A DNA stretch of 64,000 bases from Hexactinellida sp. DTS-2022 (taxonomy: Eukaryota; Porifera; Hexactinellida): the NCBI GenBank assembly GCA_028753945.1, contig JAPNXP010000011.1, positions 372,001 through 436,000 of the forward strand, given 5' to 3'. Positions 18,103-59,728 of this stretch are shown here, one piece after another (position 1 is the stretch's first letter; each line of letters opens with the position of its first letter). Made by a program: the position numbers and the translations under genes. The notes below the pieces were generated by a model. That model did no database searches. It was not told the DNA's origin and was given only the letters and a program-made list of their open reading frames with translations.

Positions 18103-19287
18103 ATGATTACTACAACAACTCAGAATATTACAATCTTTTGGGCTACCAAAATTAATGCTTCGATTAATATATTTTGTACTCCAATCCTTACTCTCAATAT
18201 CTTTTTACTACTCATCCTATCCCTTTCCTGGTTAGTATGTATATTCAGACAATTGTTGAAAAGAAATAGAAAATTAAAATCACGCAATATAAGAAATGAA
18301 CCGAGGCAGAAGGAAATGTTGAGTAATCACAGATCCTATATAATTAGAGATGTGTTTCTGATTATGATCTGCCTGTGTGAATCTGTTGTAGGCCCGATTC
18401 TTGGGATTTATGAATTAACATATTTTCTTGCAGAGCTACACCATAGGATAAATACGAATATTCAATTCTCTCACTTTTTTAAGTATCGGCAAGATAGTGA
18501 TCATGTGTTTGACTTTTCTCAAGGATTTTATCTATCTTTATTCCATTTTGACCTTCGACTTTTCAGAGCACTGATTGTCGTCCCAGTATATTGTTCGGTA
18601 GTACTAGTCCGTATTCTGAGTCAATTCTTGGTGCATAAATACAGTTTTTACAAGTACAATTTGAAACTTAAAACTAAACTTGGGATTTCGCTGTCTTTTC
18701 TTCTCGTACTCTTCATCAGTGGGTTATTTCGTAAGTTAATGATACCATTCTACTTTATAATTGCATTCGCTACCCTTCTTGAATACCTTATTCTCGTTAA
18801 GGTAACTAGGCAATTGCGTCGACTGCTCAAACAACGACTCACTGATGCACTCAACAATGAAAGTGTCGAAATATGTTTCTATTACAAAACTGTATACGGG
18901 AATTACAAATATTTCTCCGTTGTCCTACTTTTAACTCTTTTCTTTCAGTGTACATTTTTATTTATTTTCTGCATTCATTCAGTCGTGGGTACTATATTAG
19001 TATTCCCCAACGATTGGTTTGCTAAGATTCTATATCTCCCTGAAGGTCCTGACAAGTTTAAATTTATTTATCATCCAAATGTGATTATTTACAATCTAAT
19101 TGTATGTTCTATACAAGAAATTATTCTCACCATTGGATTGTGTATACAGACCGTGCCTTATCTGTTTGTATCTTTCCTGAATCTTTTTCGTAGCATTAAG
19201 AAGAGGATAAGAGGCAGTAGCATTAATACTGTGCTTATTCAGAGGTTGATTGAAAAAAATAACGATGATTATGCACAAAACCACTGA
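18103..19287 (+). CDS. Orphan 7TM receptor-like protein, copy 1 (left palindrome arm)
   Basis: Intronless ORF, 394 aa. Seven hydrophobic segments at about residues 24-47, 82-104, 153-175, 194-212, 214-234, 271-300 and 331-360. The first inner loop (48-81), the TM5-TM6 loop (235-270) and the C-tail are strongly basic, which predicts N-outside topology as in GPCRs. The N-terminus has sequons at N8 and N18. Conserved family motifs are VRILSQ after TM3 (169-174), LLKQRLTDA (241-249), GNYKYFS (266-272) and the tail IQRLIEKNNDDY (379-390). The outer loop between TM2 and TM3 (105-152) is the variable part. I do not recognise a named GPCR family; there is no DRY or NPxxY. It is nearly identical to the copy on the other palindrome arm except in that loop. 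Membrane receptor function is inference. Confidence 0.85.
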   Translation: MITTTTQNITIFWATKINASINIFCTPILTLNIFLLLILSLSWLVCIFRQLLKRNRKLKSRNIRNEPRQKEMLSNHRSYIIRDVFLIMICLCESVVGPILGIYELTYFLAELHHRINTNIQFSHFFKYRQDSDHVFDFSQGFYLSLFHFDLRLFRALIVVPVYCSVVLVRILSQFLVHKYSFYKYNLKLKTKLGISLSFLLVLFISGLFRKLMIPFYFIIAFATLLEYLILVKVTRQLRRLLKQRLTDALNNESVEICFYYKTVYGNYKYFSVVLLLTLFFQCTFLFIFCIHSVVGTILVFPNDWFAKILYLPEGPDKFKFIYHPNVIIYNLIVCSIQEIILTIGLCIQTVPYLFVSFLNLFRSIKKRIRGSSINTVLIQRLIEKNNDDYAQNH

Positions 19288-20075
19288 AACATCAGAATCT
19301 CAACATTTGAAAAGAACTGAAGAATGAAGTGTTTGATTATATCTGTATTTTATTTATTTACTGGCTATTTATTATAGGGTGCTAAAAATGTTAATAAATT
19401 ACTATACCCTCTGATTGTTTATAATATTCTACTTCTTACTACTTATGTCGTGATTTCGGTTTGACATAAGTTCAAATTGTTTGCTCAATTATAGTATGAT
19501 TTACAATTGGCTCACAAACTGTTCACGCCGGTATATCCAATATCATGTCAGTATTAATGAATTAGTCATATAAAGATTTCAAGTTGTTCAACTGGCTTTG
19601 TGTTTCATACTCAACTTGAGACATATTTATTATACAAACCAAGATACTTGTGATGACAATAAGATCCCTTTTAAGGGAATTGAATGCCATCACAATGTAT
19701 CCTTGGTTTGTATAATATGTCTCAATTTGAGCATGAAACACAAGGCAAGTTTCAACAACTTGGAATATTACTGTGACTAATTCTTGAATTACTGACAGTC
19801 TGACATGATATTGAATATACCGGCCTGAACAGTTTGTGAGTTAATTGTAAATCAAAATACCAAGTCCTATAATTCGAGCAAACAATTTGAACTTGTGTCA
19901 AACCGAAATCACGACATAAGTAGTAAGAACTAGAATATTATATACAATCAGAGGGGTATAGTAATTTATTCACACTATTAGCACCCTATAATAAATAGCC
20001 AGTAAATAAATAAAATACAGATATAATCAAACACTTCATTCTTCAGTTCTTTTCAAATGTTGAGATTCTGATGTT
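19288..20075. other. Centre of the palindrome, gene-free
   Basis: The two 3' flanks of genes 1 and 2 face each other across the centre near 19672, with at most a few unpaired bases. Converging transcripts from 18103 and 20076 would overlap in perfectly complementary sequence if either reads past the centre. A 60-codon open frame (19598-19780) spans the symmetry axis and is not considered a gene. Confidence 0.7.
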
Positions 20076-21251
20076 TCAGTGGTTTTGTGCATAATCATCG
20101 TTATTTTTTTCAATCAACCTCTGAATAAGCACAGTATTAATGCTACTGCCTCTTATCCTCTTCTTAATGCTACGAAAAAGATTCAGGAAAGATACAAACA
20201 GATAAGGCACGGTCTGTATACACAATCCAATGGTGAGAATAATTTCTTGTATAGAACATACAATTAGATTGTAAATAATCACATTTGGATGATAAATAAA
20301 TTTAAACTTGTCAGGACCTTCAGGGAGATATAGAATCTTAGCAAACCAATCGTTGGGGAATACTAATATAGTACCCACGACTGAATGAATGCAGAAAATA
20401 AATAAAAATGTACACTGAAAGAAAAGAGTTAAAAGTAGGACAACGGAGAAATATTTGTAATTCCCGTATACAGTTTTGTAATAGAAACATATTTCGACAC
20501 TTTCATTGTTGAGTGCATCAGTGAGTCGTTGTTTGAGCAGTCGACGCAATTGCCTAGTTACCTTAACGAGAATACGGTATTCAAGAAGGATAGCGAATGC
20601 AATTATAAAGTAGAATGGTATCATTAACTTACGAAATAACCCACTCATGAATAGTACGAGAAGAAAAGACAGCGAAATCCCAAGTTTAGTTCTAAGTTTC
20701 AAATTGTACTTGTAAAAACTGTATTTATGCACCAAGAATTGACTCAGAATACGGACTAGTACTACCAAACAATATACTGGGAGGACAATCAGTGATGTGA
20801 AAAGTCGAAGGTCAAAATTAAATAAAGATAGATAAAATCCTTGAGAAAAGTCAAAAACATGACCGCCATCTTGTCCATACTTAAAAATTGTCGAAAATTG
20901 AAACGTCTTATAGTGTAGGTCTGCAAAATAGTATTTTAATCCATAAATCCCAAGAATCGGGCCTATAAGAGATTCACACAGGCAGATCATAATCAGGAAC
21001 ACATCTCTAATTATATGGGATCTGTGATTACTCAACATTTCCTTCTGCCTCGATTCATTTCTTATATTGCGGGATTTTAATTTTCTATTTCTTTTCAATA
21101 ATTGTCTGAATATACATACTAACCAGGAAAGGGATAGGATGAATAGTAAAAAGATATTGAGAGTAAGGATTGGAGTACAAAATATATTAATCGAAGCATT
21201 AATTTTGGTAGCCCAAAAGATTGTATAATTCTGAGTTGTTGTAGTAATCAT
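20076..21251 (-). CDS. Orphan 7TM receptor-like protein, copy 2 (right palindrome arm)
   Basis: 391 aa from the ATG at 21249-21251. A longer reading starting at 21293 uses TTG, and the partner copy has a stop there, so the internal ATG is preferred. Same seven segments and motifs as copy 1: LVRILSQ, LLKQRLTDA, IQRLIEKNNDDY. From about residue 155 onward it differs from copy 1 at only a handful of positions. The TM2-TM3 outer loop differs in sequence and is three residues shorter (FADLHYKTFQFSTIF region against LAELHHRINTNIQF). At the TM3 entry it reads FNFDLRLFTSLIVLP where copies 1 and 3 read FHFDLRLFRALIVVP. Convergent with copy 1. Confidence 0.85.
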   Translation of the reverse strand: MITTTTQNYTIFWATKINASINIFCTPILTLNIFLLFILSLSWLVCIFRQLLKRNRKLKSRNIRNESRQKEMLSNHRSHIIRDVFLIMICLCESLIGPILGIYGLKYYFADLHYKTFQFSTIFKYGQDGGHVFDFSQGFYLSLFNFDLRLFTSLIVLPVYCLVVLVRILSQFLVHKYSFYKYNLKLRTKLGISLSFLLVLFMSGLFRKLMIPFYFIIAFAILLEYRILVKVTRQLRRLLKQRLTDALNNESVEICFYYKTVYGNYKYFSVVLLLTLFFQCTFLFIFCIHSVVGTILVFPNDWFAKILYLPEGPDKFKFIYHPNVIIYNLIVCSIQEIILTIGLCIQTVPYLFVSFLNLFRSIKKRIRGSSINTVLIQRLIEKNNDDYAQNH

Positions 21252-22477
21252 TGTAGTCCCTTTAAATATTCTCAGGAAATCAATAATATTCAATATTTAT
21301 AACTTTGGAGTAAGGGATAATTTAGGTTATTTGGACTGTATTAGTTATTAATTAGAGATCCATTATTTATCCATTAACTGAAATATGGATTATAGTAATG
21401 TGTAAGGAAGTTAGCGTAAAGAGCGGATATTCCCCTATGGTATAATTCTTAATAATTAAATCAATAATTAATGGGTGTGCTCAGTACAGTACTATTTGCA
21501 TATGTGTGGGACAAATCAAATGTGATACATCGTACAAGATGTATCCAATTCCAATATTACATCAGGAATATATAGGGTAGATACAAAGATATCATATTGC
21601 TTAGTATAGAAAGCTCTCAGTGCTATAATCTGGGAAATATAGTAATAGCTTTTAGGCACCAACTTTTGAGGCCGAACAAAAAGTGGGGGCGGGTCCTAAT
21701 ATGGAAATTCTCCAAAATTACTACCCCTAAACAATTTAGTTGCACCTATGTAATAGCTGCAGACTGCAGTTTAAATGGGTTAATGGAATTGACTACAGTT
21801 GAATGCGTATATCATTAGCTAAACGTTTTATTCCCCTTGTTAAAAGTAATTAAGCAACACTCCAATTCTTGTTGAGTAGATTTAAACCGAAACCATTTAA
21901 GGACTGTAGTGGGAGGAATATGCCAGTCTCCATTTTTGACGAGAGTGAACATTGCTATTGATTCATTACAAAACTGTTTTATAATATTATTCTTAGCATC
22001 GATTATACATTGTTGTAGCCAAAACTTCTACAAAATTAGATTAAAAGTTTCGAGCACCCTCAGTTTTAACACTTAATAGTTAAAAAGTTCGGCGCTCCTA
22101 ATAGGGTAGAGCTAAATTATAAAATACTAAGCCTCCTCATTTCTCTGGCATTTTTAAAGCGGAAAACAGTGATTACTGTATAGTTCTGCTGAAGGATTTA
22201 TTTATCATTGTGTAATTTTGGCTTTCGACTATTAAGAGAATTGAATGTCATCACAATGTATCCTTGGTTTGTATAATATGTCTCAATTTGAGCATGAAAC
22301 ACAAGGCCAGTTTCAACAAGCAGTAAGAACTAGAATATTATATATAACCAGAGGGGTATAGTAATTTATTCACACTTTTAGCACCCTATAATAAATAGCC
22401 AGTAAATAAAATAACAATACAGATATTATCAAACACTTCATTCTTCAGTTCTTTTCAAATGTTGAGATTCTGATGTT
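21252..22477. other. Outer part of the right palindrome arm and junction with third copy
   Basis: From 21252 to about 22235 this is the 5' flank of copy 2, mirrored by 17148-18102. It includes the AGGCGCCAAC/GGCGCC-type repeat near 21650-21740, mirrored at 17630-17735. At about 22236 the sequence jumps (ATTAAGAG|AATTGAATG) back to material equivalent to 19675, creating a direct repeat that is the 3' flank of copy 3. A 73-codon frame at 21597-21818 is not supported. Confidence 0.65.
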
Positions 22478-25705: not shown

Positions 25706-26298
25706 TTTAATATTGTGATTTTTTACAATTTTTTCTCAATATTTATACATATAAATACTATCCTAATGGTTATTGATAATATAATCATCACTGTAATCTT
25801 ATAGGTATTATTTTCACATTATGATTTGTATGCTATTACTCTGAACTTCAATATACGTAAACTGATAATCGATTATATATTACACGAAGTGATTTGTTTG
25901 CCGAATTCATGAATTGTATTTTTCTAATACAACTATTTTAAAATAGCTGCGTGTAAAATTAATTTGTGTCCTCTAAAATATATTCCTTTCAATAATATAA
26001 TGAGTTGTAGTTATTTATGATCATATGTCAGTAATTTACACAGAAAGATAAGTTATAAATATATGGAGACAAAAATAACGTAAAAACTTCAGTTTAGCTG
26101 ATTGTACAAAAATCTATTTCACAAATCATTTTTCTAAAATAACCAACACTACATCCAAAATCTTATAGAAATTCTAAAATACACATGATTCTTCCAAACA
26201 AAATTATTTATGCTGGAAATTACTGTGATGATAACAGAACAAACAAATATTAAGCAGTAAAGACATTACAACAATAATAGTATACAACTACAAGTTAA
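25706..26298. other. Intergenic between 7TM copies 4 and 5
   Basis: About 590 bp of AT-rich sequence. Directly upstream of copy 4 the minus strand reads TTATATGTATAAATA (about 25743-25757), a plausible TATA region 40-55 bp before the ATG. Nothing else seen. Confidence 0.45.
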
Positions 26299-27465
26299 TT
26301 AATTAATTTTCTCTAACAATGCTTTAATCAAATCGTGGTTAGGATAATCTCTACTTTGCCTTATATAAGATCTCATTGCATTCACAAACACATTTACCGA
26401 CACAATGCAATATGGAATAACAAGTAAGCCATATCCAATGGTAACCAATATTGTTTCAAACGATGTAAATAAATTTGAAATGATCACCAATTGTGACATG
26501 TAAGGTTGTGGAAGTTGAGATAGATTAGCTATTTCGGTATTCAATAGAATGATTTTGAGCCAATTTGTAGGAGCTGTTGCAACTAGCCAAAATAATGAAA
26601 ATATAAATGTAAAGATTAAATTAACTAATTGTAAAAAAAGTGACAACACTAGTATTGAAGAACCAATTCTGAATTCCAAATAGGCATTTCTGTAATATCT
26701 GATAACATATTTAGCTTGATTTTCATGTGTTTTAGCATCGAAATACCTTTTGTATAATAGGCTACAGAGGGATTTAGTAGCCTTGGTGTAAGAAACAAAT
26801 TCACAAATGAAAATAAGAATTACGAATGTCCATTGAATAATGACTGTTTGACGAAACAATCCCAAAATAAAAACGAATATTAAAAGATATAATTTACGCT
26901 TTATTCTTGAACTAATTTTAAAAGATGAATTTGGATAGAAACTGTATTGTTGGCAGAGATATTGTGCAAAAATATTAACCAAAATTATCAGTAACAGATA
27001 AATTGTCAAAAAACCTGAAATAGAAAGTTTATTCAAAAAATCATTTTGAAGAATTGTATACATCTCATCTTTATAGGATGAGGTTGGAAATCTATGTCTA
27101 TGATCTTCCCTTGATGTTCTCTTAAATTCGGATAAAGTTCTTTCAAGTACAAGCGATGCAACCAAAAACCATTCTATGGTACTAATGGCAATTATAAAGT
27201 TATTCTTAACAATTTGACGCTGACAATTTGCAAACTTTATTTTCAATTCTTCTCTAAAATATGAATTCTGGACTTTAATGAGATATTTGATGCATCTTTT
27301 TTCCTGTATTTGTCTATATATGAAATATATTGACCAAATAAAGGAAAGGACCATCAAAAATCCTAAAAGTAAAATCAAAATACTCGTAAAAGTTTCATTA
27401 ATAGCTACAAAAATATCACAAAAATCCATAGCATTTGAGATATTCGACACATTATTACCTGTCAT
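26299..27465 (-). CDS. Orphan 7TM receptor-like protein, copy 5 (divergent)
   Basis: 388 aa, ATG at 27463-27465. Seven hydrophobic segments (first at about 26-50, last at about 325-350) and three N-terminal sequons (N5, N8, N23). The family blocks are recognisable but drifted: VNIFAQYLCQQYSFY (163-177) for the post-TM3 motif, LLYKRYFDAKTHENQ (236-250), YYRNAYLEF (257-265), and a shortened tail ending LIKALLEKIN. The Arg of RILTQ is replaced by Asn. A candidate TATA (GTATAAATT, minus strand, about 27512-27522) lies about 50 bp upstream. Probably a long-separated member of the same family. Confidence 0.78.
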   Translation of the reverse strand: MTGNNVSNISNAMDFCDIFVAINETFTSILILLLGFLMVLSFIWSIYFIYRQIQEKRCIKYLIKVQNSYFREELKIKFANCQRQIVKNNFIIAISTIEWFLVASLVLERTLSEFKRTSREDHRHRFPTSSYKDEMYTILQNDFLNKLSISGFLTIYLLLIILVNIFAQYLCQQYSFYPNSSFKISSRIKRKLYLLIFVFILGLFRQTVIIQWTFVILIFICEFVSYTKATKSLCSLLYKRYFDAKTHENQAKYVIRYYRNAYLEFRIGSSILVLSLFLQLVNLIFTFIFSLFWLVATAPTNWLKIILLNTEIANLSQLPQPYMSQLVIISNLFTSFETILVTIGYGLLVIPYCIVSVNVFVNAMRSYIRQSRDYPNHDLIKALLEKIN

Positions 27466-28335
27466 TGCTTTGTGCTTGCCAATTTAGGATTATTCTTCAA
27501 TGAATACTCTCTCTAATTTATACTCATTATGGATTGACATAATATATGGATATGATTCATTGATAAGTATATTATGTTAGAATATGATGTAATAATACGT
27601 TAGAAATTATATCTTCTGTAATCTACAGGAATAAGTTCCTTGTAGAGTTGAAAGGGAAAAATAAATTGTATTCAAATGTATTTTTACAAGTGAATCATAT
27701 CTAAACATATTGTGTCATTTGAAATCTCATTTGACAAAAAATTATTAATTTGTGGTATACTCAGTTATGATATGATATTATGTATTTTTATACAGTGCAA
27801 ATTAATTCAGTTATAGTGAATACAGAAAGAGTTAATTCTGTTTACTTGACACCGAGTTACTCTACTGAAATTATAATATCTATAATGATGCATTAACCAC
27901 GCTATTAAATAACCGAAGGAATATTAGTAGTATTACAGTATATAACATAATGAGATGTTAAAGACTTGTGTAAATTATTTTGCAAAGAAGGATATATGTC
28001 GTTTAACCTTTGGGGTATCTGAAAGAAGGAAGGTAAATGGAGTTGCTATTATTTTAATAAATTACTAAATCAATAGTCATACCCATCTCAAGAATCTAAC
28101 TACGTAGATATAAACAACAGTTATGCATAATATCAATTGAAATATAAGTTCCTGTATAAAAGAAACTTGTGTTTGTTTATGTCAATGAATCATCATTCTG
28201 AGTAATTGTAAACTATTGTTCTTGAGAAGAACTAGGGCTTCAGTTCTGATATGAACTAATATATGCATAACTTGTGGTACTTATATCAAGTAAGATTTTT
28301 GAGTAAGTGTATGACTATTGAATTTATAATCTAAT
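27466..28335. other. Intergenic between copy 5 and the Cys-repeat gene
   Basis: AT-rich. Contains the left arm (27962-28034) of an inverted repeat whose right arm is the first part of the coding region at 28336. No other structure noticed. Confidence 0.55.
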
Positions 28336-28422
28336 ATGGCAACTGCAGTTACCTTCCTTCTTTCAGATACCCCAAAGGTTAAACGACATATATCCTTCTT
28401 TGCAAAAGAATTTACACAAGTC
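27962..28422. repeat. Inverted repeat pairing upstream DNA with the 5' coding sequence of the Cys-repeat gene
   Basis: The left arm 27962-28034 is the reverse complement of 28349-28422 over about 74 bp with one clear mismatch. Shared words include TTACCTTCCTTCTTTCAGAT, ACCCCAAAGGTTAAACGACA and TATATCCTTCTTTGCAAAA. The loop is about 315 bp. The right arm encodes residues 5-29 of the downstream protein, its leader before the first Cys repeat. Confidence 0.9.
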
Positions 28423-31400
28423 TGCATCGGCATTAACATTGAGGCAGTGTGTTCTAATCACAGCTGTGAATCTGTACAAAACTCCGATGGACTTGTCATC
28501 ATCAAGTTATCTGGGATAACAAGCTGTGCTTACCAGGACGTAGTCAAATATCTGAGGTGTTCGTCTTGTGGATGTGTGCTTCCGCCAGAGAGAGTTAGAG
28601 GGGTTGTTTTCGTACGGTGTCAAGCCACAATTAATCTTGGTAAGGAGTCTGTGAATTTTCGAGTTAGAGGTGAGGAAACTTTGCTATGGGAATTACCATT
28701 CCAAGGGGTAGATGTACTAATCACCCTCCTAGACAAAGACCCACAGCCCAAGGGTGATTCAAAAGAATATCCCGGTGAAGGAGTGAATCTTTCGACTGTA
28801 TGTCCCAACAACGAGTACCAGGAGTTAAATACTAGCGCTCGCGAAATGTCCAAGTTAGTATGTGAGATAGATGTATCCGGCCCTTCGGCTACCGATGTAA
28901 ACTCAGTACATATTAGCACTCCAGAAACGGTTGAACCCGACAAAGGGAAACCCACCTCCCCAAAGAATACATTAAGCATGTTAAACCAAATTCTAGCAGA
29001 GTTTATGGGAAAGTACAATCTAGCAATCACCCCAGGATTGAATCTTTTGGCCAAATGTTCAAAAGATCGATGTTCCTCTAATGAAAGGGGTATTGGTGTC
29101 ATATGCATTGGTATAGGTAGCGCCAATTCACTCCAGTATAAAGAAGTTATTCTCGGCCATACCTTCCATCTTGCCATCAACCCGTGCCGCTTACCTGTTT
29201 CAAAGGTATATTCCTTTTCCAGTGCAAAGCTAAGATTGCTATGTGTGGTGAGGAAACTAAGTATTCAGTGGGTCGAATCCCTGAGGTATTTGCTATTAGT
29301 CTGGAAAGTGATGAGGTAGAAATTACGGTGCTGGAAACAAGAGCTGAAATTCAAACAGGTATTAAATCTCCAAAAACATCTAAATGGTCCAAAGGAGGTC
29401 TCACCCATTCTGGATCGAGTGAAAAATCATTCAAGCGTGCATGTATTGGACTAAATTTAGAAGCCATGTGTGTAAACCCTAATTGCGAAGCATCACTTGT
29501 TGTTATTCCCTGTCCCAACATCACTGAGTGCGTGTACTCCTCCCTATTAACAGGTATTGCTTGTCCCGGATGTCAATGTGAGATCTCTCCTCTCTGTTTC
29601 ATTGGTATAACACTCGTCAAGTGTAAAGCAGAGGTTAAAATAGGGGATGAAAAAGACATCGTCACAGCAGAAGGAGACGAGACCGTTGACATTGAAGTTA
29701 ACCTGCAAGGACCAGAAGTGTACGTTAGTATTATTAAGCGGCACATATTCAGTTCTAGCGAACTCTCAGGGGGAAGTGGGAAGGAGTACACCAGTTGTAC
29801 AACAGGTCTCAATTGTATAGTTTCATGTGAAAACCCGGAATGTCTCGCATTCAAAGATAATGACGGATATGTAGTTGTTAATTTTAAAGATGTGTCTACT
29901 GGTGTATTGCTGGAAGTGGCAAAGGGTATGAAGTGTCCTGCCTGTTTTCAAGTTCTCCTTTTCTCTAACTTAATAGCAGTCCAATTCGTGCGTTGTAACG
30001 GACAGTTACAGATAGGGTCAGAGACTGAATTGTTCAATTCTGTAGGGAGTATGATATCAAGATTTAGGATATTTTCAGGGGGTCTTGAAGTATCTTTCTC
30101 AATTGTTAATACTGAATCCTTTCGAGATTTTCTAATACCAGAGAAAGGACTTAATCTCATCGGCAAGTGTTCTAACACCTCTTGCCCTTCACAATCCCAA
30201 CAATCGCTTGAGGGTATCATTTGCTTAAAAGTGGGAGAAGTCACAAACTGCAGGATCCAGAGATTAATTCAAAATCGGACTTGTCCACGTTGTGACCATG
30301 CCATCCCCACAGACAGTTTTATATCCACTACATACACTCAATGTACAGCTCAAGTTAAGACCAGTGAGTTTACAATTTCATATATGGTAGGACAAAAAGC
30401 AGAACATGTTCCCATTGCTATACGGACGCAGCCAGTGATTGACATTTTGCCAGTCCAGACAAAGAATTTATCCCTTGAACCCGTTGGGTCTCCATATAAG
30501 CTGATGAAGAGAGGAATGAACTTGAAAGTCATGTGTTCAAACTTAGATTGTGCGACTAAAAAGTCTGGTGATGGCATCTTAATATTCTCTCTTCAAGAAA
30601 TGAAACTATACAAGTTCGAAGAACTCTTATCCACTGTTAATTGTCCTGCATGTCAAAACACTCTCTCTCACATGCAACTATTAACTCTATCCTTCGTCCA
30701 CTGCAGAGCCGAGATGTTAGTTGGAAAAGCGCGGTTTGTCATTGAGGCCAAGAATGAGGAAGTGATAGACTTAAAACTAGATTTTTCTAAATCTGATATC
30801 ACAATCCATGTCATGGAAAAGGAGGCCGATGTCTCTGTTCTATTTCCAGAAATTCAGAGTGAGGGATCAACAAGCAAGGCGGTGGAATTCTCTTACCACT
30901 CAGCATGCCATGGTCTTAATTTCATGGTCGTCTGCTCCAATCCTATTTGTGAGTCTGTTAAAAACAGCGAGTGTGTTGTGATAAATTCAGGACACATATT
31001 GCACTGTGATCTCAGACCAGTTATGCAATTACTGAACTGTTCTTCTTGCGAGGATAGAATATCCCCTGATCAGGTTAGAGAGGTATCATTCTTTTGTTGC
31101 TCAGGTGAGATTATTATTAATGGAAAGGAGGAAAAATTCAATTCCACAGGTTCAGTCACTTCTGATTTCAAAATACCATGCGACAACTCACCTGTCATTA
31201 TTAAAATTTACCACAGAGAATACAATGTCATACAGAATCCGGTTTTTGGATACAAAAGGAGACCATTCAACAAACATCACAATGGAATTAACTTCCACTG
31301 TTATTGTAAAAACCCTTCTTGCACAACTGTTAAGGTGAGATCCGGACTTGTTGTCCAGAGGAATGCCCTATTTATACGAGAGCATGGTTACGATCCTGAT

Positions 31401-31646
31401 ACATGCAATTACAGTCAGGAGATTTCGCATCTTAAGTGTCCCTCATGTGGATCTCATCTCAAGAAATACTACGTGTGGGGAGTGGGACTCGTGCACTGTA
31501 AGGGAACCATAACCAGATACGGATCCCCTTCAGAATCCTTCTATCCCAACACAGGAGTTGTTGTATTGTACCAGCTGGATGCTGAGGATACTTCTTTAAA
31601 GATAGAATTCAAGCTCACTTGGTCTATCTTTTCATTTCTTATGTAA
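28336..31646 (+). CDS. Eight-repeat Cys-rich (zinc-ribbon-like) protein, interrupted by one frameshift
   Basis: Two overlapping frames, 28336-29319 and from about 29163 to 31646, encode one protein of roughly 1,100 aa. It has eight repeats of about 100 aa at 28423, 29023, 29437, 29797, 30141, 30508, 30902 and 31279. Each has G-[LIM]-N, C-x4-C, a Cys-x2-Cys knuckle about 30 residues later (CSSC, CPGC, CPAC, CPRC, CPAC, CSSC, CPSC), a single Cys in a F-x-x-C-x-A/G motif and a following beta-like stretch. The spacing suggests a zinc ribbon per repeat. In repeat 2 the reading shifts from frame 1 to frame 3 at about 29160-29166, exactly at the first Cys of the expected C-P-S-C, leaving PSC in the new frame. 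A one-base loss explains this. Repeat 1 is separated from repeat 2 by a Ser/Thr-rich linker of about 95 aa. No signal peptide or TM. I recognise no named family; function unknown. Either a recent pseudogene or a sequence error. Confidence 0.75.
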
Positions 31647-38500: not shown

Positions 38501-41500
38501 TGTGATCGATGTTAAAAATACCGGGGTTTTTCATATTTTAATTTGGTAATTAAGGTTGCCTTGGTTTATCTCGCTTTCCCACAAAATTACTATCCATATA
38601 CATTTACTGTTAAATTCCTTTCTTTTAGGTGAGTTGAAAGATTGTATGTTACTACAGAACGATAATAAGAAAATACCAGTTTTGCTTGCTACAGAAAAAG
38701 AAGTAATCGACTTAATCCTTAAATACTCCCCATTAGACGCTATAGTAGACAAAGAGATAGGAAGCTTAATTCACAAAGCGGCAGCCGACGATAATGAGTT
38801 GTTAGCGAAGGCTTTGGTTGAGAAGAATATTGATTTGCAGGTAGTCAATAGTAAGGGATTTTCCCCACTTAAAATAGCATCAAAGCGTGGTAATATTAAT
38901 GTCGTGAGAGTTCTGCTTACTGGAGGCGCAGACCCGAATTTTATTGGTAAGAAAGTGCCAGGTTTTTCCGCTCTAAATAATGCAGTACAATTTGGTCAGC
39001 TCGGATGTTCTAAGTTATTGATACAGGCTGGAGCTAATTTAGTGCATAAGGATATGACTAATACTGCTCTGCATTCTGCTTCTTATGGTGGTCATCCTGA
39101 TGTGGTCGAATTTCTAATTCGCGAAGTTGGAATGGATGTTAACCAGAGAAATAACGCAAATAGAACCCCATTATTTCAGTCCATCACACAAGGACATTAT
39201 TCTGTTGCTAAAGTGTTGTTAGGTTTAGGTGCTGATCCTAATGTAGCATTGAATGATGATAATGAAACGTTAGTACATATTGCTGTGAGGGAAGGTGCAA
39301 AGGAAATACTTACAATGTTATTAGAGGCAAAAGCACGGCCAGATGAAACCCTGAGAAATGGGACAACTCCATTAATGCTAGCTGTACAAGATGATCGTGA
39401 TGATTATATTCCATTGATAATGGCACACGGGATTACACTCGCGAAAAAAGATGCGGAAGGTGACACAATTTTGCATTATATCGCGAGGAATGATTCATGT
39501 GCGTCTGCTAAATACCTTTTGAAACGTATCGGTGCTATGAAGGGAATAACACAGGAATTCCAATTATTTAAAAACAAGAATGAGGCGGGTAAAACACCGT
39601 ACGATTTGGCTATTGAATGCCAGAGTGAGAACGTATTGAGTATATTTATTCGGCATGCACCCAAGAATTTCTTCAAAGATTTTCCTAATCATCTGCACAG
39701 TTTTTATGACCAGAAACTTCATGATACTCTGAAGAAGGTTATTTCAGGATTTGTTAAAGTTGATACTGAGAATGGTAGGTTGAAAGTTCGAAATTAAAAT
39801 TTTTTATTTTACACAAAATTTTATTTTTTCTTGGAAATTGTAAGTTAACTTTTGAAAATTTTATCGCCAGCTACCATACTACAAGTTCAATGTAGAAAAA
39901 AATATTGCATTGAATTTTATGTTTATTTTAAGTTAATTTTTAACTAACAAATTGTTGTAATTATTGAATTTTTGTATTCTACTAGGCATAATGTCAGCTG
40001 ATATGACAATATTCGAATCTATTGATAACTCTAAATCCCCAAATGGACAAGCCCCTAACAAATTGACCCTTCTCTACAAACTTATGAAATGTACAGATCC
40101 AGAACTTAAATACCACCCACTGGTTACCTTCATTGTGAATGATAAACTACGCTTCTATCGCTGGTGGCATTTAACATCTCTAATTTTTTTTTCTTTCTTC
40201 TTAATCTGTCTCGGGTATGCTTTGGTACAAGCCTCTACCAAATGTGATTCTATGTTATGGTCCTATGATACTAGTGAGGATATATTAAGACTTCTCTGTG
40301 AAGTAATTTGTCTATTGTATGGGATTGCTTTCATTTTCATTGGTAATGCTAATTTCATGTCTGAATGGAATTTCGTGATTTGTAGGAAAAAGGAAAAGAA
40401 ATGTACCAATAATATAGTAATAAATTATGTAAATGGAAAACAAAATAATCCCTTCTCAAAAGTATGTGCTGCAATACGAAATGGAATTTGTTCGTTAGAT
40501 ATTCAATTGAAATACTTATTCACTGCAATATATGAATATTACAAAGGACAGTTTAACTTAATTGAAGCTATTGCAGTAAAATCCTTTGTAATTTTTGTTT
40601 TTCTACGTTGTTTTGGTTCTCCTGCCCAATGGACAATTGCTGGAATAACATTCATATTCTTCAGTTTGTCTCTTTTAAAATACACTCGAATCTGCCCTAA
40701 ACTCGGCTCATATGTTAACAACATCTTAAAGGTATTCACTACAGAAGTACCATATTTTTTGCTTATTGTACTTATAATACTATTCGCTTTCTTTGGTGGT
40801 ATTCATCTTGCTGCGAGACAACAGTCAGTTCAATTAGCCCAAAATTTGACTGTGAACGGTCCATATCCTGTGTGCAACAATTCACAAACAGCTCTCTTTT
40901 GGTTCAACCCATCTCTCACTGCTATTTACGATCTGAGACGACCTTTGCTCACTGGATTAATTCTATTGCTTGACGGTGGGCTAGGGATACATGAAGAGGA
41001 TATTTTAAAAGATAATTTATTCTTCACAATGATCTACCTTTCTTTCGCATTCATTTTGATTGTGTTAATGTTGAATATTCTAATCGCTCAGTTCATCTAC
41101 ACATACAGAAAAGTTGTGAGTACGAATAGTAACGATTATAAGTTCGAGCAATTAATTGATCTGGAATTAAAGAACTTTATTCTCTTCTGGAAACGTATTA
41201 AGAAGTCTTCCAGTATTACGCGAGTTGAGATGCCACTGAGTGTCTGGTACGAACTAGATGGAGGTGAGTTTATTATTCTAATTTTCAGAAGATTGGATTT
41301 TAATAAGTAAATTTGGGAAATTAATTTGACATAACAAATTGGATTTTCCCAACAAACCAAAATAATTACAAAAAATTTCGATTTGTCAAAATACCGTCAT
41401 TCTATAAAAATGGTTGCTAAATAAATTGTCATTATAAATTGATGACAATTTCATTAATTCCATTATTTATACTCCTTGCACTTAATCACACACAAATTCC

Positions 41501-44334: not shown

Positions 44335-44610
44335 AAAGAATAAGAGTTTAATCATTTATCATAAGGGAGATTTATATTTTCTCCAGTGGAAAGTTCCATT
44401 GTATTTTTATACTAGGGCGAAATAAAATTTGAATTTACCCTTGGGGTAACATAAAATGTACATAAAATGTTAAATTATCCCAAAACATCCATATACTATA
44501 TATGTACTATATGTAATCTTATATGCAATATGTAATGCTAGTTGTATTAGAGTAAGGATTCATATTTTAGTATAAAATACTTAATAAATATTATATATAA
44601 ATAATTTAAA

Positions 44611-45732
44611 ATGATAGTAATAGCAATCATCCTAAACTCAGTGTTTTTATTGATTTTCCTAATATTCAGTGGATACTGGGGGTTTATTTTCATCAGGAGA
44701 ATCCATTGCTGCAGAAAATACAAGAGAGGAGTAGCGAGATGTCTCTCAGGTGATTCAGGTTATTTAAATAAACAATTCTATTATCATTATGAAACTGAAA
44801 TATGGAAAAATACTCTATTACTTTTGATCACTTTTTCAGAGATCATTGGGAGTATCGTACTATTTACATCAGATACCATACACCATTACCTTACCTACCA
44901 TAAAGTAAGTAATAATACACTCGCATTACCATTCACTGATTGTACAAGTTATCACAAGCCTGCACTGAATCAAAGTAATATTATATTTGCGGAAATTCCT
45001 TTATTAAATGGACTTAACTCCATAGCGAGATCTGCTGAGTTATTTGTGCTTGCCTTCAGTGCTTGTTTGATGAATTATCTAATTATTCGTTTCAAGAAAA
45101 TCAAACAACCGTACAACACATTGAATTCTCGGCTCTTCTTAATTATAACCACCTTGTTAAGTACAGTCATTATCCTAACTGGGTTTATACAATATACTAC
45201 AGTTATTAATACTGTAATGTTCTACATAATTGTACTCACATATCTCTGTATATTTGTTCGCACTTCCAAACGATTCAAATGTGCCTTGCTCCAGAGAGCT
45301 TTGGAGCGTCTCACACAACACGGTTCCAACAAGGAAGAGATGAAACAATACAGATATTGCAAGCACACTATTAATATATTAACATGGGGATATCTGTTAA
45401 TAATATAATCAGAAGTCTTAATTGATTTTACTGCGGTTTTCACCGGTATAGTATTCTTTGGAGACTGTTATTTCCCGTTTAATTTGTTCAGTTCGTTAAA
45501 TTATGTTATCCAAACTGAAGAAGCTATTGAAACATTTTTTAAAGTAATGCAATATACGGAATTGATTGGAAAAGTTATTTGCTTTCTATCACTGTCTTTG
45601 AGCCTGTCGCCATTCGTGTTCGTCACAATCGGTATTTGGAGTAAACATATTCATAAGTTTATTTATGGCACAAAGAAAATACAGTATACTACTGCAAATA
45701 AGGACTTAGAAGAGTTATTAAATAATCATTAA
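44611..45732 (+). pseudogene. Divergent orphan 7TM gene with a single in-frame stop
   Basis: From the ATG at 44611 the frame is open to TAA at 45406-45408 (265 aa). It then continues in the same frame, with no other stop, to TAA at 45730-45732, a total span of 373 codons plus the terminal stop, close to the family's 388-394. TM1 starts at the N-terminus, so the usual outer tail is missing. Basic inner loop (RRIHCCRKYKRG), sequons in the TM2-TM3 loop (NNT, NQS), a drifted ICL3 block (CALLQRALERLTQHG) and the last TM (VICFLSLSLSLSPFVFVTIG) keep the family layout. The stop falls in TM6. A candidate TATA (AGTATAAAATAC, about 44568-44579) lies about 35 bp upstream. Recent nonsense mutation, polymorphism, readthrough or sequence error are all possible. 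Family assignment is weaker than for other members. Confidence 0.62.
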
Positions 45733-49264: not shown

Positions 49265-49305
49265 AAGACAAAGAAGTTCGAGACATTTGGATTCTATAGT
49301 ATATT

Positions 49306-51189: not shown

Positions 51190-51254
51190 ATCTCAAGATA
51201 GATAACACATAAATGTATGGAGAAAGTTATAACTAATAAAGTTTATTACTAATT

Positions 51255-53195: not shown

Positions 53196-53747
53196 TCAAA
53201 AAAAGTCACTTTTCTCCGTATTTTCATCTTTTTTAATAAGCACCTTACCCAAAGCTCTAAAACTGTTGGTCCTTTCAAGCCGTCTTACACTAGCCTGTCG
53301 GATTTGAGGAATATGAGTTAAATCACTTTTTAGATCCATTATATTCTCATTTCTCTCAGAATCAGATTCATTAATATCTTCTGAAAGTTGAATATTATTT
53401 TTCCAGACATTTACACTAAATGCTGACTCAACGAATACACTTTGAGAAAGTTCATTGTTGACAATTCTTTCATTTAATACCATTTTCCCTATTTTGTAGT
53501 CTGTAAATATTTTGTCATTTTCTTCCTTCCATTGTTTCAAAGTTGTTTTTATTACTTCCAGACCTGCCAAATTCTTCTCTGATTTAGCATCGATTATTCT
53601 CTTCTTTGTGACCATTTCCCCATAGCCTTTTTCGTTTATAGGGGTTCTTTTTGAATAACTAATTTTTGGCATTTTTGGAAGATTATTTCTGCCCTTGAAA
53701 AATCTGAACAAATTCCAATTATCTATCCTAGTTTGTAAGGTATACAT
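53196..53747 (-). CDS. Small basic protein of an unrecognised three-member family, member A
   Basis: 183 aa, ATG at 53745-53747, no signal peptide or TM. Three blocks are shared with the genes at 57533 and 61643: WNLFRFFKGRNN (11-22); DAKSEKNLAGLEVIK to QWKEENDKIFTDY (53-84, probably helical); and RRLERTNSFRALGKVLIKK (155-173). The segments between are acidic or variable. R-T/S-N-S in block III looks like a basophilic kinase site (inference). A TATAAAAGC element (minus strand, about 53778-53788) lies about 35 bp upstream and matches that of member C. I do not recognise the family. It is soluble and probably cytosolic, and lies next to 7TM genes. Confidence 0.72.
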   Translation of the reverse strand: MYTLQTRIDNWNLFRFFKGRNNLPKMPKISYSKRTPINEKGYGEMVTKKRIIDAKSEKNLAGLEVIKTTLKQWKEENDKIFTDYKIGKMVLNERIVNNELSQSVFVESAFSVNVWKNNIQLSEDINESDSERNENIMDLKSDLTHIPQIRQASVRRLERTNSFRALGKVLIKKDENTEKSDFF

Positions 53748-53777
53748 ATTATAATATTTATGATCAAATTCCTTATC

Positions 53778-53788
53778 GCTTTTATATA
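53778..53788 (-). promoter_or_regulatory. Putative TATA box of small-protein gene A
   Basis: On the minus strand TATATATAAAAGC, about 35-40 bp before the ATG. Gene C has TATGTATAAAAGC at the same distance (62224-62234), so a core promoter is conserved between paralogues. Confidence 0.45.
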
Positions 53789-54522
53789 TAATAATTTAAT
53801 TCCCATTGTTTGAACATTATAATTATATCTGGATAAAATAGGAATCCATAATTCACTTAAATGATATCCCACTGATGCGTTAAAACAATTCAATGTAACT
53901 TTTATATTACTTCTAATAACAAAATGCATAGGTATGTATCAGCAACTAATTTCAATGGAATCATATATATGCTATACTATTCTGATTTTAGCTGATTTAC
54001 TTCTTCACAGTTTAGTGAGAAAGATGATTTATTAGACACTAAAATTGACCTTTAGCAAGTAATCCTGGATCTTTTAATATTTTAGAAAAAACCGTGCTTC
54101 GCTAGAGCATAACTCTATGTATGTATTCTCTAAAAACACAGTTTTCCCCGAATTGTCATCCAAGTAATTAATTAATTATTTAATTAATTAATTTTAACCT
54201 GAATTAGGCTTTTGTTTTTCTTAAAATGAATGTTATATTTTAGGTGAAAGATTTACAAACACGCAAAATATTTATACATACATTTGTGTTAATATGTATA
54301 ATGCTGTGAGTGAATAAGCAGAAACCATTCAGTAACATTCAAATAGTTGACAATTCCTAGTGTTTGAAGACAGTTTATCATAGGATATCCAGAAAATGAT
54401 TACTCATGGTCATATTGAGTGTAATGACCGGTGATACTTTCATGAAATAAACGCATAAAATTGGATGAATATTATATAGACAGTAACCTATATTTTATAA
54501 AAAGTACAGATAGGGATGCTCT

Positions 54523-54636
54523 TCAATACAATTTGTATTCACGATATGCCAATTTGTAGAGTATAATGTTATTTGATCGATTTTCATGAAGGACAGCGTC
54601 GTTATAACGTTGCTTCAGTAGCAGACAATTTACGAG
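54523..54636 (-). pseudogene. Relic of an orphan 7TM gene (inner loop 3 region)
   Basis: Read on the minus strand from 54636 this gives LVNCLLLKQRYNDAVLHENR, then SNNIILYKLAYREYKLY and a TGA. It aligns with SLKQRLNDATLHENQ / NNVILYYRLAYREYKYSS of the gene at 51255. One Tyr of the YY pair is missing and the frame dies straight after YREYK. Flanking sequence shows no further family similarity by eye. It is the most conserved block of the family left from a decayed gene, sitting upstream of small-protein gene A on the same strand. Confidence 0.8.
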
Positions 54637-55875
54637 CCTTAAGGGTTAATTGCATTCACGACTTATGTTGAGTTATACAAATAGAGTAGTATTGAACTAA
54701 TTGAGGTTTATTTCCATTGATATAGAGGAATAAGTGTACAGATTAAGAGAAAAATCTTAAACTTAAGATTAAAGCGAGGCTTTTAATAACTGTACTGGCT
54801 GCGTTAAAATGCGAAGAAACAATGTTGCTAAATAGATGAATATTGTGATGACAGCATTGCAAAGACGAAATTTTGTATTTTTAATTATGCTAATATATAA
54901 GATTACCAATGTTGAAGATACGTATACATACTATACAATTATTTTTCCTTTACACTAGCCATCACGATAGCTTACAATCAATCCAAATATAATGAATTGT
55001 AATTCTCAAATAGTAACTAATTTAGTATTCGCTATGACCTTAATCACCTCATTCGGTCTAACAATGGTATGCAGTTGAGAACCTTTTGTTAACAGAATTA
55101 CAAATTGAATCAAATTATTTAGGATCGGAAGTTTTTACCGATATACCCCAATTGTTCTTTCAAGTTGTGTGCTGCAGTAGACAAATTAATTGCAAATTGT
55201 AAGAAAAAGTACATAGGTTGGTTGACTGCTTTCTCGATTGTTTTGTCCTGTAAGTTTCTGAATAATTAATTATAGTAATTAACTAATTATATTAGTGGGT
55301 TGTCTGTATTTCGGTCCAAGTATGCAATTTCAACTAATAGCATTGATGATATGAAGTAATATATATTATAGTAGAACCTCGTTTAACCGTGACACCTTTT
55401 TGTAATGTTATTTTCAGTCACTGAAAAGGCGATTTTATTTCAAAAATTCACCTCTGCAAAGTCGGATTTGTATCTACAAGTGTTGTCGTTTTTAAGTAAG
55501 CCCTATTATTTGTTTATTATAAACATCATTTGTGCAATTAAGAACAATTTAATTAATTAATTAATTAATACTCAATTATCTCAGTTGAACTTGAATTTGA
55601 TTAACTAACTTATATCAAGTTATCAACCACTACTAATTTGGGTTACTTCTATTAATTAACATTCGTAATCATCGTCAGTGCTGTATATAATAGCTTTATT
55701 GTTCCTATTGTTGACTAATGAATTTAACTTTGTGAATAACTTTTAATACAACCACAACTATATTATATATCAATCCAATTCTGCAATGTAACTAATTTAC
55801 ACATTAATTAAACAAATGCATTTGCATCTGTGGTACAAGAATAGCACTAATGACTAATGGGTATATAGTTAGATT

Positions 55876-56389
55876 ACCTTATTATAGGAAATTAACGCGG
55901 CATGAAATTAACGCGAATTGGAGCAATTCGCGTTAATGTCATGGCGCATTAATTTCCTATAATAAGGTCTACCCCCGAGTATATAATGTCCTAGTCTATT
56001 ATACTCCTGAGTATAATGTCCTAGTCTAATTATCCTCCTGGGTATATAATGTCCTAGTCTAATTATACTCCTGGGTATATAATGTCCTAGTCTAATTATA
56101 CTCCTGGGTATATAATGTCCTAGTCTAATTATACTCCTGGGTATATAATGTCCTAGTCTAATTATACTCCTGGGTATATAATGTCCTAGTCTAATTATAC
56201 TCCTGGGTATATTCTGTCCTAGTCTAATTATACTCCTGGGTATATAATGTCCTAGTCTAATGACCATATTATATAGGTAATTAACGCGCCATGAAATTAA
56301 TGCAACGGAAATTAACGATCCATGAAATTAAAGCGAATTGGAGCAATTCGCGTTAGTTTCATGGCGCGTTAATTTCCTATAATAAGGTA
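55876..56389. repeat. 33-bp minisatellite flanked by two palindromes
   Basis: A 93-bp near-perfect palindrome (55876-55968; ACCTTATTATAGGAAATTAA to its complement, centre GCGAATTGGAGCAATTCGCG) is followed by about 8.5 copies of a 33-bp unit (55977-56262; TATAATGTCCTAGTCTAATT plus ATACTCCTGGGTA). A second, partly rearranged copy of the palindrome follows (56270-56389). The unit length is divisible by three, which creates a spurious 119-codon repeat ORF. Confidence 0.88.
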
Positions 56390-57532
56390 CTTCAAATTAT
56401 TTGTCAATTTTCAGAATGTTTGTCAATATTTATGCAATATGTTAGACCTTATTTAACATGGTTAATTTATGTCAAATTCCTACACTGGTGGTCCCCTTGA
56501 AATCGTATTCAATGAATACAAATTTCGAATAGGAAGATCAAATTTTGACGGTCCACTAATGTTCGTAACTGTAAGTGATAACTTAATAATAAATTGAGAC
56601 ATAATTAACTACAATTCTTATTTACGTATCGAAAGTCAGTCATTTAGAAGACGTTTTATTTTGATTCAGTAGCCAAATAAGGCAACGTTAGCAACTAACT
56701 ATTGAGTCATTCTAGATATCATCCTACGCAAAATTATTATGACTATCTTATCCAATTGTATAATTTAAAACTTTGCAACGTACAAATCAGCAAAAATAAA
56801 TTTATCTATTAATAATTGTGACGTCTTTCCAAAATTAAATTAGTAATACAGCATATCACTAAAAAAAAAAATTACGAATTTTCTTGCCCATATATTGTGT
56901 TTGTTATAGTTTCATTATATCATTCAATTTGTATGCAGAATAATCACTGTCCTTTTGCAGTTTACTATTTTTCAGTGGAATAATTTATTGGTAGACAATT
57001 AAATTTAGGGCAGCACAATCGACTTGGCAAGGGTGAATGACTTTGTCATGTAAAAAGCGACCTTCCAGCCCCTAAAGCAGGGATAATTTTAAGGATATTT
57101 TATAACTTCACATCTCCGAAAATGTACGGGTATATTACGTCACCGAGCGATCACGTCCTACAATTCTTCCTTTTACTAGCCAGGTCTTTTATCTAACTTT
57201 GTAGGGATCGCGTTAATGATGTATAATTTATTGTATAAATATCAACATGTTTAGCTACATACTTGAGGAATCTAAAATGATTTCTTAATGATCCTATCTT
57301 TAGTGATGGTATCTATAGTTGTGTCAGATATGTTCGAACACATTTTTATATACTTCACATTTTGCAATTTATTACTAAACATAATCATTTGTAACTTCAC
57401 ATTTATCCGATCATCGGAGCTTAAAATAACCCCTGCCAAAAAATTACATTAGATGTGTTGGCCGTGATATTTTTATAAAAATTAATATCATTACAGACGT
57501 TACTATACAATTGAAAAATAAATTTTATTAAT

Positions 57533-58057
57533 TTAAAGAAATTCCGTATTTTCTTCTCTAGTATCTTTCCTTATAAGCACTTTACCCAAAGCTCTAAAAC
57601 TGTTGGATCTTTCAAGATGCCTAACACTGACTTTTCTTTTTACCCGAATACTAGGTGATCTTGAAAGATTCTCACTATTAACTCTACTTGTGTCAGAATC
57701 TAATATATTATTATATTCATTATTCCAAAAGTCCAATGTAGGAATTAATCCTGGAGAAAATTTGCTTCTGTAATTATACTGGCTGAATAAAGGATTTTCA
57801 GTTTTGTAATCTGTAAATATTTTATTATCTTCTTCCTTCCATTGAAGTAAAGTTGCCTTTATCTCTTCCAGACCTGCCAAATTCTTCTCTGATTTAGCAT
57901 AAATACTATTCTTCTTTGTATTTAGCTCACCACAATCTTTGATTAAATTTTTACTGATGATAATTGGCCTACTGATTATCGGTCTTTTCGCGAAATTATT
58001 TCGCCTTTTAAGAAATCTGAATAAATTCCAAGTCTTCATTATTGTTAATAGATACAT
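57533..58057 (-). CDS. Small basic protein of an unrecognised three-member family, member B
   Basis: 174 aa from the ATG at 58055-58057; a second in-frame ATG seven codons in (MKTWNLFRFL) aligns better with the paralogues. Blocks: WNLFRFLKRRNNFAKRP; AKSEKNLAGLEEIKATLLQW with EEDNKIFTDY; and VRHLERSNSFRALGKVLIRK near the end. It lacks the DSSD-type acidic patch of member C but has DSDTS. About 475 bp downstream of the stop of the 7TM gene at 58532 on the same strand. Upstream (minus strand) is TTATAAATACAAC at about 58084-58096. Function unknown. Confidence 0.72.
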   Translation of the reverse strand: MYLLTIMKTWNLFRFLKRRNNFAKRPIISRPIIISKNLIKDCGELNTKKNSIYAKSEKNLAGLEEIKATLLQWKEEDNKIFTDYKTENPLFSQYNYRSKFSPGLIPTLDFWNNEYNNILDSDTSRVNSENLSRSPSIRVKRKVSVRHLERSNSFRALGKVLIRKDTREENTEFL

Positions 58058-58531
58058 AATAGTATATTCAACTCATTTTGTTGTATTTATAATAAAGATT
58101 TGTGTCTAGTCAGAAGAATATCTTACGTATGTATAATGATTATTAGTAATGACTTCATTTAAAGCATTAATATATTATTAACGTGCATCAAAAAGTATTA
58201 GTCTTTTCCTGTTCTATGTAATCAAATGAGTTATTAATATTCCTTTCAATAGAGTACGTATATGATGTTTGAACGACATTGTTTAATGGAGAATCTTGTT
58301 GTGCAATCGGGTAAGCATATACTGACTTGTAAATTATTATCAATTGAATAGTGTTATGGATATTGAACTACGTACTTACATAATTTTCATACATAATTTA
58401 TTAAAATTTATTACATCAAATACATATATATACGTACTTATATTCATAATAATAATCTCAATATAAATATACAAACATAATAACGTGGTTTGAATCAAAA
58501 CACTTTGAAGTTAATTTTTATAAGTTTATGT
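58058..58531. other. Short gap between 7TM copy 7 and small-protein gene B
   Basis: AT-rich and gene-free. It serves as 3' flank of the 7TM gene and 5' flank of gene B, which point the same way. No repeat recognised. Confidence 0.5.
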
Positions 58532-59728
58532 TTATCTATTCCTCAGGTAAGCAGCATTATTTTCTTCTATTAATCTTTGTATATTTGAATGATACAAATT
58601 AATTCTATTGTTTGTAATCTTACTTCTTAGGTTCCTAATGATTCGTCTGAGTGTTACCATTAAGTAAATAATAATTTGCATGCTTGTACCAGTTGTAATT
58701 AGGAAGGTTTGGATCACGACAAGTAAATTATTGGAAACTTTGTTGTAAAAAAGTAATGCCAGATTTGCTGCAACGTAGTCGTCTTCCTCAAAACCATTCA
58801 TATAATAAAACTTATAAAAGACATAATTATCGTTAAACAATTCCGCTAATGTTAGGTTTATACAAAAAAGAGAGATGCCTAAAAATTGAACAATAAATGC
58901 GAACAAGAAGATTATGGAAGAATACTTATATTCACGATATACCAGTTTATAATAGAGTATTACACCATTAGCATGATTTTCGTGGTGGATAGCATCATTA
59001 CGTCGTTGTTTAAGCAGAGTACAAAGGTTTGTACTGGATATGACTAAGAGGACGATTTCACGCAAGATGATTAAGAGTATACAAATACAATAAAGAGTAA
59101 TTAATTGCGAAATTATTCCCATAATGAATAAAAAGAGGTGAGTATAAAGTGACATAAATAATTCAAATCTTAAACTCCAATGGTGTTGATAAAAACTGTA
59201 TTGAGATACCATGTATTGTGTGAGAATTCGTAGAAATAAAGCAACAAAAGACACAGAAATTATGGTAAGTGCGTAAAAGATGCGAACTCCTAAAAATTGT
59301 TCAATGTAATGGTATAGCCGACCGTTCTTAATAAATATGATTGGACTAAGGGAATGAATTACAGATATGTGTTGAGCATCTTTGTATTTAATTCCATAAT
59401 TTATACCAAGTTCAGCCAACATATATATAATAGAAATTGTGGTCAGGCATTCGCTCAAACAAATGGCCAACAAAAATGCATTCTTAATTCTATTGGACCG
59501 AAAGTTCTTTATTTCATTTTTCCAAATATATTCAGGTTGATTATAGCGTTGTTTTATTTTCATTTTTTCTCTTCTATAATCTTTTGTTATTTTATGAATT
59601 AAATACACTGCCCAAGAACTTGACAGTAAGAAGATTATTAAATAATTTACATACATAACGGGAACTATAAATAGTTGTGCTTTGATAACATTTTGCGAGA
59701 AAAAATCTACATATGACATTAATCCCAT
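58532..59728 (-). CDS. Orphan 7TM receptor-like protein, copy 7
   Basis: 398 aa, ATG at 59726-59728 (a second ATG three codons in). Unlike others it has no N-terminal sequon. Seven hydrophobic segments and basic inner loop 1 (KITKDYRREKMKIKQRYN). Family blocks: LFLRILTQYMVSQYSFYQ, LLKQRRNDAIHHENH, ILYYKLVYREYKYSS, LMVTLRRIIRNLRSK and tail IQRLIEENNAAYLRNR. The outer loop between TM6 and TM7 is longer than in the others (NDNYVFYKFYYMNGFEEDD). Small-protein gene B follows on the same strand. Confidence 0.83.
   Translation of the reverse strand: MGLMSYVDFFSQNVIKAQLFIVPVMYVNYLIIFLLSSSWAVYLIHKITKDYRREKMKIKQRYNQPEYIWKNEIKNFRSNRIKNAFLLAICLSECLTTISIIYMLAELGINYGIKYKDAQHISVIHSLSPIIFIKNGRLYHYIEQFLGVRIFYALTIISVSFVALFLRILTQYMVSQYSFYQHHWSLRFELFMSLYTHLFLFIMGIISQLITLYCICILLIILREIVLLVISSTNLCTLLKQRRNDAIHHENHANGVILYYKLVYREYKYSSIIFLFAFIVQFLGISLFCINLTLAELFNDNYVFYKFYYMNGFEEDDYVAANLALLFYNKVSNNLLVVIQTFLITTGTSMQIIIYLMVTLRRIIRNLRSKITNNRINLYHSNIQRLIEENNAAYLRNR

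Follow-up and report, generated by a model that had tools for sequence, protein, structure and literature searches.

Rhodopsin-like (class A) G protein-coupled receptors (GPCRs) of sponges include groups without orthologues elsewhere, some of them lying as 2-8 adjacent genes, as described in a part of Krishnan 2014 (PMC4302439) in which the AqRho groups are classed with the Rhodopsin family. A section of a more recent study (eLife 2025, PMC12716839) describes RSF, GPRch1, GPRch2 and GPRch3, GPCR-like seven-transmembrane (7TM) proteins without extra domains that stand outside the named classes and were recognised through clustering and predicted structure; RSF, GPRch1 and GPRch2 are reported there as absent from metazoans. 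For the 7TM ligand-gated ion channels (7TMIC), the superfamily of the insect odorant and gustatory receptors, an intracellular N-terminus is given as a membership criterion in the relevant passage of PMC9998090. Here, I describe a family of apparently intronless genes for GPCR-like proteins that is clustered in a 64,000-nucleotide stretch of DNA (the window) deposited as Hexactinellida sp. DTS-2022 (contig JAPNXP010000011.1, positions 372,001 to 436,000; called C3 below). The favoured reading, to which I assign a probability of about 0.62, is that of a large single-exon family of seven-helix receptors with a GPCR fold, an outer N-terminus (N-out) and an inner C-terminus, which falls outside those named GPCR families against which it could be compared and is most likely chemosensory.

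The family is like class A, AqRho groups included, in its predicted seven-helix fold, its N-out topology and its clustering, but differs in having no listed match to 7tm_1, no DRY at the third transmembrane helix (TM3), no NPxxY, and a very short second extracellular loop (ECL2). It shares seven helices, extreme divergence and large repertoires with the 7TMIC, whereas its predicted orientation is the opposite and neither a listed Pfam match nor a listed fold match connects the two. Class T receptors, the bitter taste receptors of vertebrates (TAS2R4, TAS2R46 and TAS2R14), show 8-13% identity to the family in structural alignments, while the first inner loop of the family is much longer and no TAS2R is among its listed Pfam matches. 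RSF and GPRch1-3 were compared by description only.

A family of apparently single-exon 7TM genes

A tblastn search of the window with 37 superfamily proteins (E<=1e-4) returned exactly nine homologous places, namely seven intact genes, an interrupted gene (matched over 44605-45729) and a relic (Table 1), the last with its seven stop codons spread across 423 bases (G000:C3:426478-426900). Genes are called here by their first position in the window. An earlier note, made from the letters of the window alone, had proposed these seven genes, the nonsense-interrupted member 44611 and a relic near 54523, and all of them were recovered. The nine do form one family as it had claimed, but 44611 belongs to a distant branch that is linked to the rest at the profile level only, and the family, though clustered here, is found genome-wide. 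A single open frame spans the protein in all seven intact genes and at most loci in the genome, which agrees with the predicted lack of introns.

Table 1. Members of the 7TM gene family and upstream TATA boxes in the window
Feature	Position	Strand	Basis
Intact 7TM gene, 394 aa, group A	18103..19287	+	ORF, alignment, tblastn
Intact 7TM gene, 391 aa	20076..21251	-	ORF, alignment, block comparison
Intact 7TM gene, 390 aa	22478..23650	-	ORF, alignment, block comparison
Intact 7TM gene, 388 aa	24539..25705	-	ORF, alignment
Intact 7TM gene, 388 aa, the most divergent intact member	26299..27465	-	ORF, tree, second AlphaFold2 model
Group B gene, single in-frame TAA at 45406-45408	44611..45732	+	Reading frame, relatives on other contigs
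Intact 7TM gene, 389 aa	51255..52424	+	ORF, first AlphaFold2 model
Relic of group A gene, seven stops	54475..54906	-	tblastn, genome search
Intact 7TM gene, 398 aa	58532..59728	-	ORF, alignment
TATAAATA box, 40 bases before ATG of 18103	18063..18070	+	
TATAAATA box, 50 bases before ATG of 20076	21294..21301	-	
TATAAATA box, 42 bases before ATG of 24539	25740..25747	-	
TATAAAT box, 57 bases before ATG of 26299	27516..27522	-	
ORF, open reading frame.

The assembly comprises 112 Mb in 18 contigs. TGF-beta domains at 4 places identify the genome as that of an animal, and a sponge is the probable host; a search for Wnt gave no match, but neither did its controls, and COX1 was not matched. Of two papers on glass-sponge genomes (PMC10282587 and PMC10280926), one states that wnt is missing from Oopsacas minuta. 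Searches of the genome with five of the proteins, the hits of which were merged into loci, gave 88 loci, 64 of which hold a stop-free frame of 340-430 aa and 24 of which are short or broken, and a sixth search that was added later contributed 4 more loci (3 of them open), bringing the family to at least 92 loci and at least 67 open frames. These totals are lower bounds, as each further branch searched gave new loci. The 88-locus merge was built on 95 hand-entered places; 12 small rows adjoining these were excluded as pieces (one, C7:794530, lies ~1 kb away), and three places of group D were weakly matched (C11:667482, C11:669562 and C4:515991; E 0.001-0.007). At least 5 of the 64 open frames appear to have a damaged start or end (L023, L034, L035, L047 and L062).

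Alignment of the seven intact proteins shows 30 invariant columns, a third of which (10/30) fall into the inner loop between TM5 and TM6. The inner loop after TM1 measures 36-48 aa and ECL2 1-5 aa. Simple hydropathy recovered the seven hydrophobic segments of the earlier note in four of the seven proteins, but gave eight in two and six in one. In the four 7-segment proteins, 30-33 lysines and arginines lie in the inner loops and the C-tail versus 6-11 outside, and an N-out topology is therefore predicted, as the note had it. The motifs it had listed were right in outline but too strict in their wording: RILTQ[FY] after TM3 is exact in three proteins only (three others have RILSQF, and 26299 has NIFAQY), and YKYSS before TM6 is likewise exact in 3/7, with 26299 departing from the consensus at every motif checked. 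NPxxY occurs in none of the 37 superfamily members, the window seven included. DRY, which the note had also taken to be missing, is indeed not found at TM3, but there is one instance among the seven window proteins, in the outer loop after TM2, and 2/37 superfamily members carry it, at residues 135 and 322, neither in TM3.

Predicted fold and comparison with known families

AlphaFold2 models were made for two members, 51255 (first model; pLDDT 73.5, pTM 0.66) and 26299 (second model; pLDDT 74.0, pTM 0.68). Each is predicted to be a seven-helix bundle rather than another fold, and in the first model helices run on into the cytoplasm. GPCRs accounted for all of the best 50 listed VIA-align matches of each model and for 48 of the best 50 listed Foldseek matches of the first (the other two being ABC transporters), where the first match reached probability 1.00 and a TM-score to the target of 0.57. 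The receptor-like character proposed in the earlier note thus agrees with the models, and I regard a receptor fold as quite probable. Class T came first in both VIA-align lists and in the Foldseek list, its lead over the best class A row in VIA-align being only 1.0 Z for model 1 and 1.9 for model 2. No 7TMIC structure appeared among the best 50 listed matches in the three fold lists, which is not decisive alone.

The orphan status that had been claimed for the family also held against Pfam and the PDB. Pfam scans were evaluated as complete lists at E<=5 for the window proteins and at E<=1 for the 37 members, with 25 of 26 matched families listed for the latter. The 37 members gave scattered weak matches only among the families listed, none near the family cut-off, and the best of these (E 0.0066) was to a domain of unknown function common to 3 members. 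Neither 7tm_1 (PF00001), nor 7tm_6 or 7tm_7, nor the TAS2R family, for which Pfam includes a model, was among the window-protein matches or the 25 families listed for the 37 members. A PDB sequence search found no match for query A1 and two for query A2 (E 0.15 and 0.96), hence no convincing sequence relative. Searching the genome with the 7tm_7 profile gave zero matches, but the controls gave none either. With 103.8 bits, the 7tm_1 profile detects an ordinary class A gene of this genome, and a profile comparison between this gene and the family showed no similarity (probability 0.3). A viral or prokaryotic origin was considered and rejected, no relative having been found in viral contigs or prokaryote genomes, where the search covered DNA with a match to one or two conserved peptide patterns. 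No publication on such a sponge receptor family was found in open-licence full text by exact phrase, a wording that can overlook relevant papers, and the family may still be published.

Branches of the family

Most of group A lies in clusters on C3 (in the window, at ~321-331, 556-559 and 699-735 kb, and at 3.54 Mb), with further members on C1, C4 and C5. Group B, the branch of 44611, consists of many close copies, mostly 80-86% identical, that are scattered over C1, C3, C7, C11, C13 and C15; 44611 itself is up to 86% identical to copies elsewhere with a full open frame. Group B is a distant and younger branch. The window genes are not monophyletic in a 40-protein tree, where 26299 groups with L010-L012 from other parts of C3 and 51255 groups with L002 of C1 (64% identical). 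Of all contigs, C1 carries the most group B copies (12.5-16.9 Mb), and two pairs, L040/L043 and L060/L061, one on C1 and one on C13, are recent duplicates with ~97-98% identity over long stretches.

The branches were connected by profiles. An A profile matched 20/20 B and 7/9 C proteins at E<0.01, and a B+C profile matched 17 of the 27 A proteins, with no reversed or shuffled decoy below E 0.8. Aligning A with B+C in hhalign gave a probability of 98.8 (E 1.3e-16, 347 columns), as compared with 0.1 for a reversed decoy and 3.4-54.7 for five block-shuffled ones. Judged by sequence, the A and B/C/D branches are homologous. Each of ECL1 and ECL3 contains one shared cysteine in all 20 B/C/D members and in none of group A (0/17), suggesting a putative ECL1-ECL3 disulfide in the B/C/D branch.

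Patterns of variation and gene conversion

The DNA of 20076 is 96-100% identical to that of 18103 in 11/13 blocks of 30 codons and 83-87% identical in the two blocks around ECL1. Similarly, 22478 is 96-100% identical to both genes from about TM3 on, while its front shows 46-82% identity, lowest at ECL1, a split between front and rear that points to gene conversion. The ratio of non-synonymous to synonymous change (dN/dS) was below 1 in 12/12 scored A pairs (of 13; range 0.20-0.82) and in 120/120 B pairs (median 0.53, range 0.34-0.98), and in group B the TM5-TM6 inner loop is the most conserved part (0.23). In all six chosen A pairs, which share members, ECL1 had a higher density of amino-acid change than the remainder of the protein (P 0.03 to 9e-12), and in the pairs with 18103 synonymous change was raised in ECL1 as well. 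Overall, the outer loops and tails are most variable and the TM5-TM6 inner loop is conserved. A conserved inside combined with a variable outside or outer bundle would be the pattern expected of receptors with changing ligands.

An upstream TATA box

The upstream test covered 19 A genes (the 7 window genes and 12 loci), with short A loci and those missing an early ATG excluded. TATAAATA lies within 100 bases of the ATG in 14/19, while nine further 100-base upstream bins combined held 1 match; as a background, 47/2295 of any ATG in the window have TATAAATA in the 100 bases upstream. There was no match to the box in the 120 bases upstream of 22478 and 51255. Among 16 genes of group B, TATAAATA was found in 7 and the looser [AG]TATAAA[AT] in 15. 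Five other ORFs checked in the window have no TATAAA within 100 bases before their first ATG, although the real gene start may lie elsewhere. In most genes of the family the TATA box precedes the ATG by ~30-80 bases, so that the leaders are probably very short and each copy of a gene can bring its core promoter along. Retrotransposition as the way in which group B spread was considered and rejected: by eye, there was no poly-A tail in 18 copies viewed at their 3' end (target-site duplications were not searched for), and the shared sequence extends upstream beyond the TATA box.

Alternative explanations

Several results weigh against the proposed family of GPCR-fold chemoreceptors. None of the Foldseek E-values was below 0.001 (best 0.0088), the models were built on an alignment of just 7 rows, of which three are almost the same over their rear half, and AlphaFold2 may be biased towards a common fold whenever a 7TM protein is N-out. 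Compared with class A receptors in general, the seven proteins have a far longer first inner loop and a far shorter ECL2. The unity of the family is also incompletely reflected in the profiles, as B+C misses 26299 (E 69) plus nine others of the 27 A proteins and B alone matches zero A proteins. Moreover, the variation points to no single ligand site: group B varies most in TM6 (dN/dS 1.02) and TM7 (0.81) versus 0.70 in ECL1, ECL1 is on top in one of three A sets only, with the N-terminus, ECL3 or the C-tail above it elsewhere, and positive selection on ECL1 was rejected as pN>pS was not significant in any of the 6 chosen A pairs (P 0.12-0.95).

Some of these points would fit other seven-helix membrane proteins, such as channel subunits, transporters or accessory proteins, that arrived at a GPCR-like helix arrangement by convergence. 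The shallow models, the modest E-values in Foldseek, whose best 50 listed matches include two ABC transporters, the long cytoplasmic helix extensions and the lack of a recognisable signalling motif all speak for this explanation, which I nevertheless consider unlikely. Extremely diverged class A receptors that lost their signature motifs, for instance relatives of the clustered AqRho groups, are improbable to a similar degree. Class A structures make up much of the fold lists, and the adjacent sponge-specific rhodopsin genes mentioned above offer a precedent; yet those groups are assigned to the Rhodopsin family in the part of PMC4302439 concerned, whereas 7tm_1 is not among the listed Pfam matches here. 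The same profile readily finds the normal class A gene of this genome, with which the family shows no profile similarity. Besides the missing TM3 and NPxxY motifs, ECL2 is too short for the disulfide that it usually forms in class A. Membership in the 7TMIC appears very unlikely: seven helices that extend into the cytoplasm and divergent, expanded orphan families are typical of that superfamily too, but the N-terminus is predicted outside, the Pfam families listed include neither 7tm_6 nor 7tm_7, and no 7TMIC is among the best 50 listed matches of any fold list.

Neighbouring open reading frames

Three small intronless ORFs lie among the receptor genes on the minus strand (53196-53795, 57533-58072 and 61643-62215). 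They encode about 168-185 aa from the likely ATG and have similar cores, two of them have a TATA-like box ~35-50 bases upstream, and neither of the two that were scanned reached the cut-off of a Pfam family. When one of the three was searched against the whole genome, exactly these three places were returned, and they are possibly partner proteins of the adjoining receptors. Elsewhere on the plus strand, an ankyrin-repeat ORF is followed by an ORF at 39991 (both within 38646-41310) that resembles a TRP-type channel by eye and had no match in the Pfam scan, and two long ORFs at 28336-31646, for which no Pfam match exceeded the cut-off, contain repeated modules with cysteine pairs. An ORF at 55908-56327 on the minus strand is built from short tandem repeats.

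Discussion

If the family indeed consists of GPCR-fold chemoreceptors, an external ligand would bind the variable outer loops as well as the outer bundle, and the conserved TM5-TM6 inner loop together with the end of TM3 would relay the change to a partner in the cytoplasm, for which a heterotrimeric G protein is the most likely candidate. Compact gene units of a TATA box and one open frame would let copies spread and stay functional, while tandem and dispersed duplication, gene conversion and decay would change the repertoire. The predicted sensory role, be it chemosensory or environmental, has an even chance of being right, and for the predicted coupling to G proteins the odds are just as balanced. 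More tentatively, and with the odds somewhat against it, this may be a new GPCR family outside GRAFS and the named eukaryotic families, serving an early-branching animal, probably a sponge, as a major chemosensory repertoire, dispersing as TATA-driven single-exon units and with an unusual ECL1-ECL3 disulfide in its B/C/D branch.

If true, this would be an independent, non-neural parallel to the taste and olfactory receptors of vertebrates, bearing on how animals without nerves sense chemicals and on how frequently large chemoreceptor repertoires have originated independently. Some 67 or more open genes with a predicted GPCR fold that Pfam does not recognise would be overlooked in receptor counts that rely on Pfam, and these open genes may serve as a ready candidate list for expression mapping and ligand screening.
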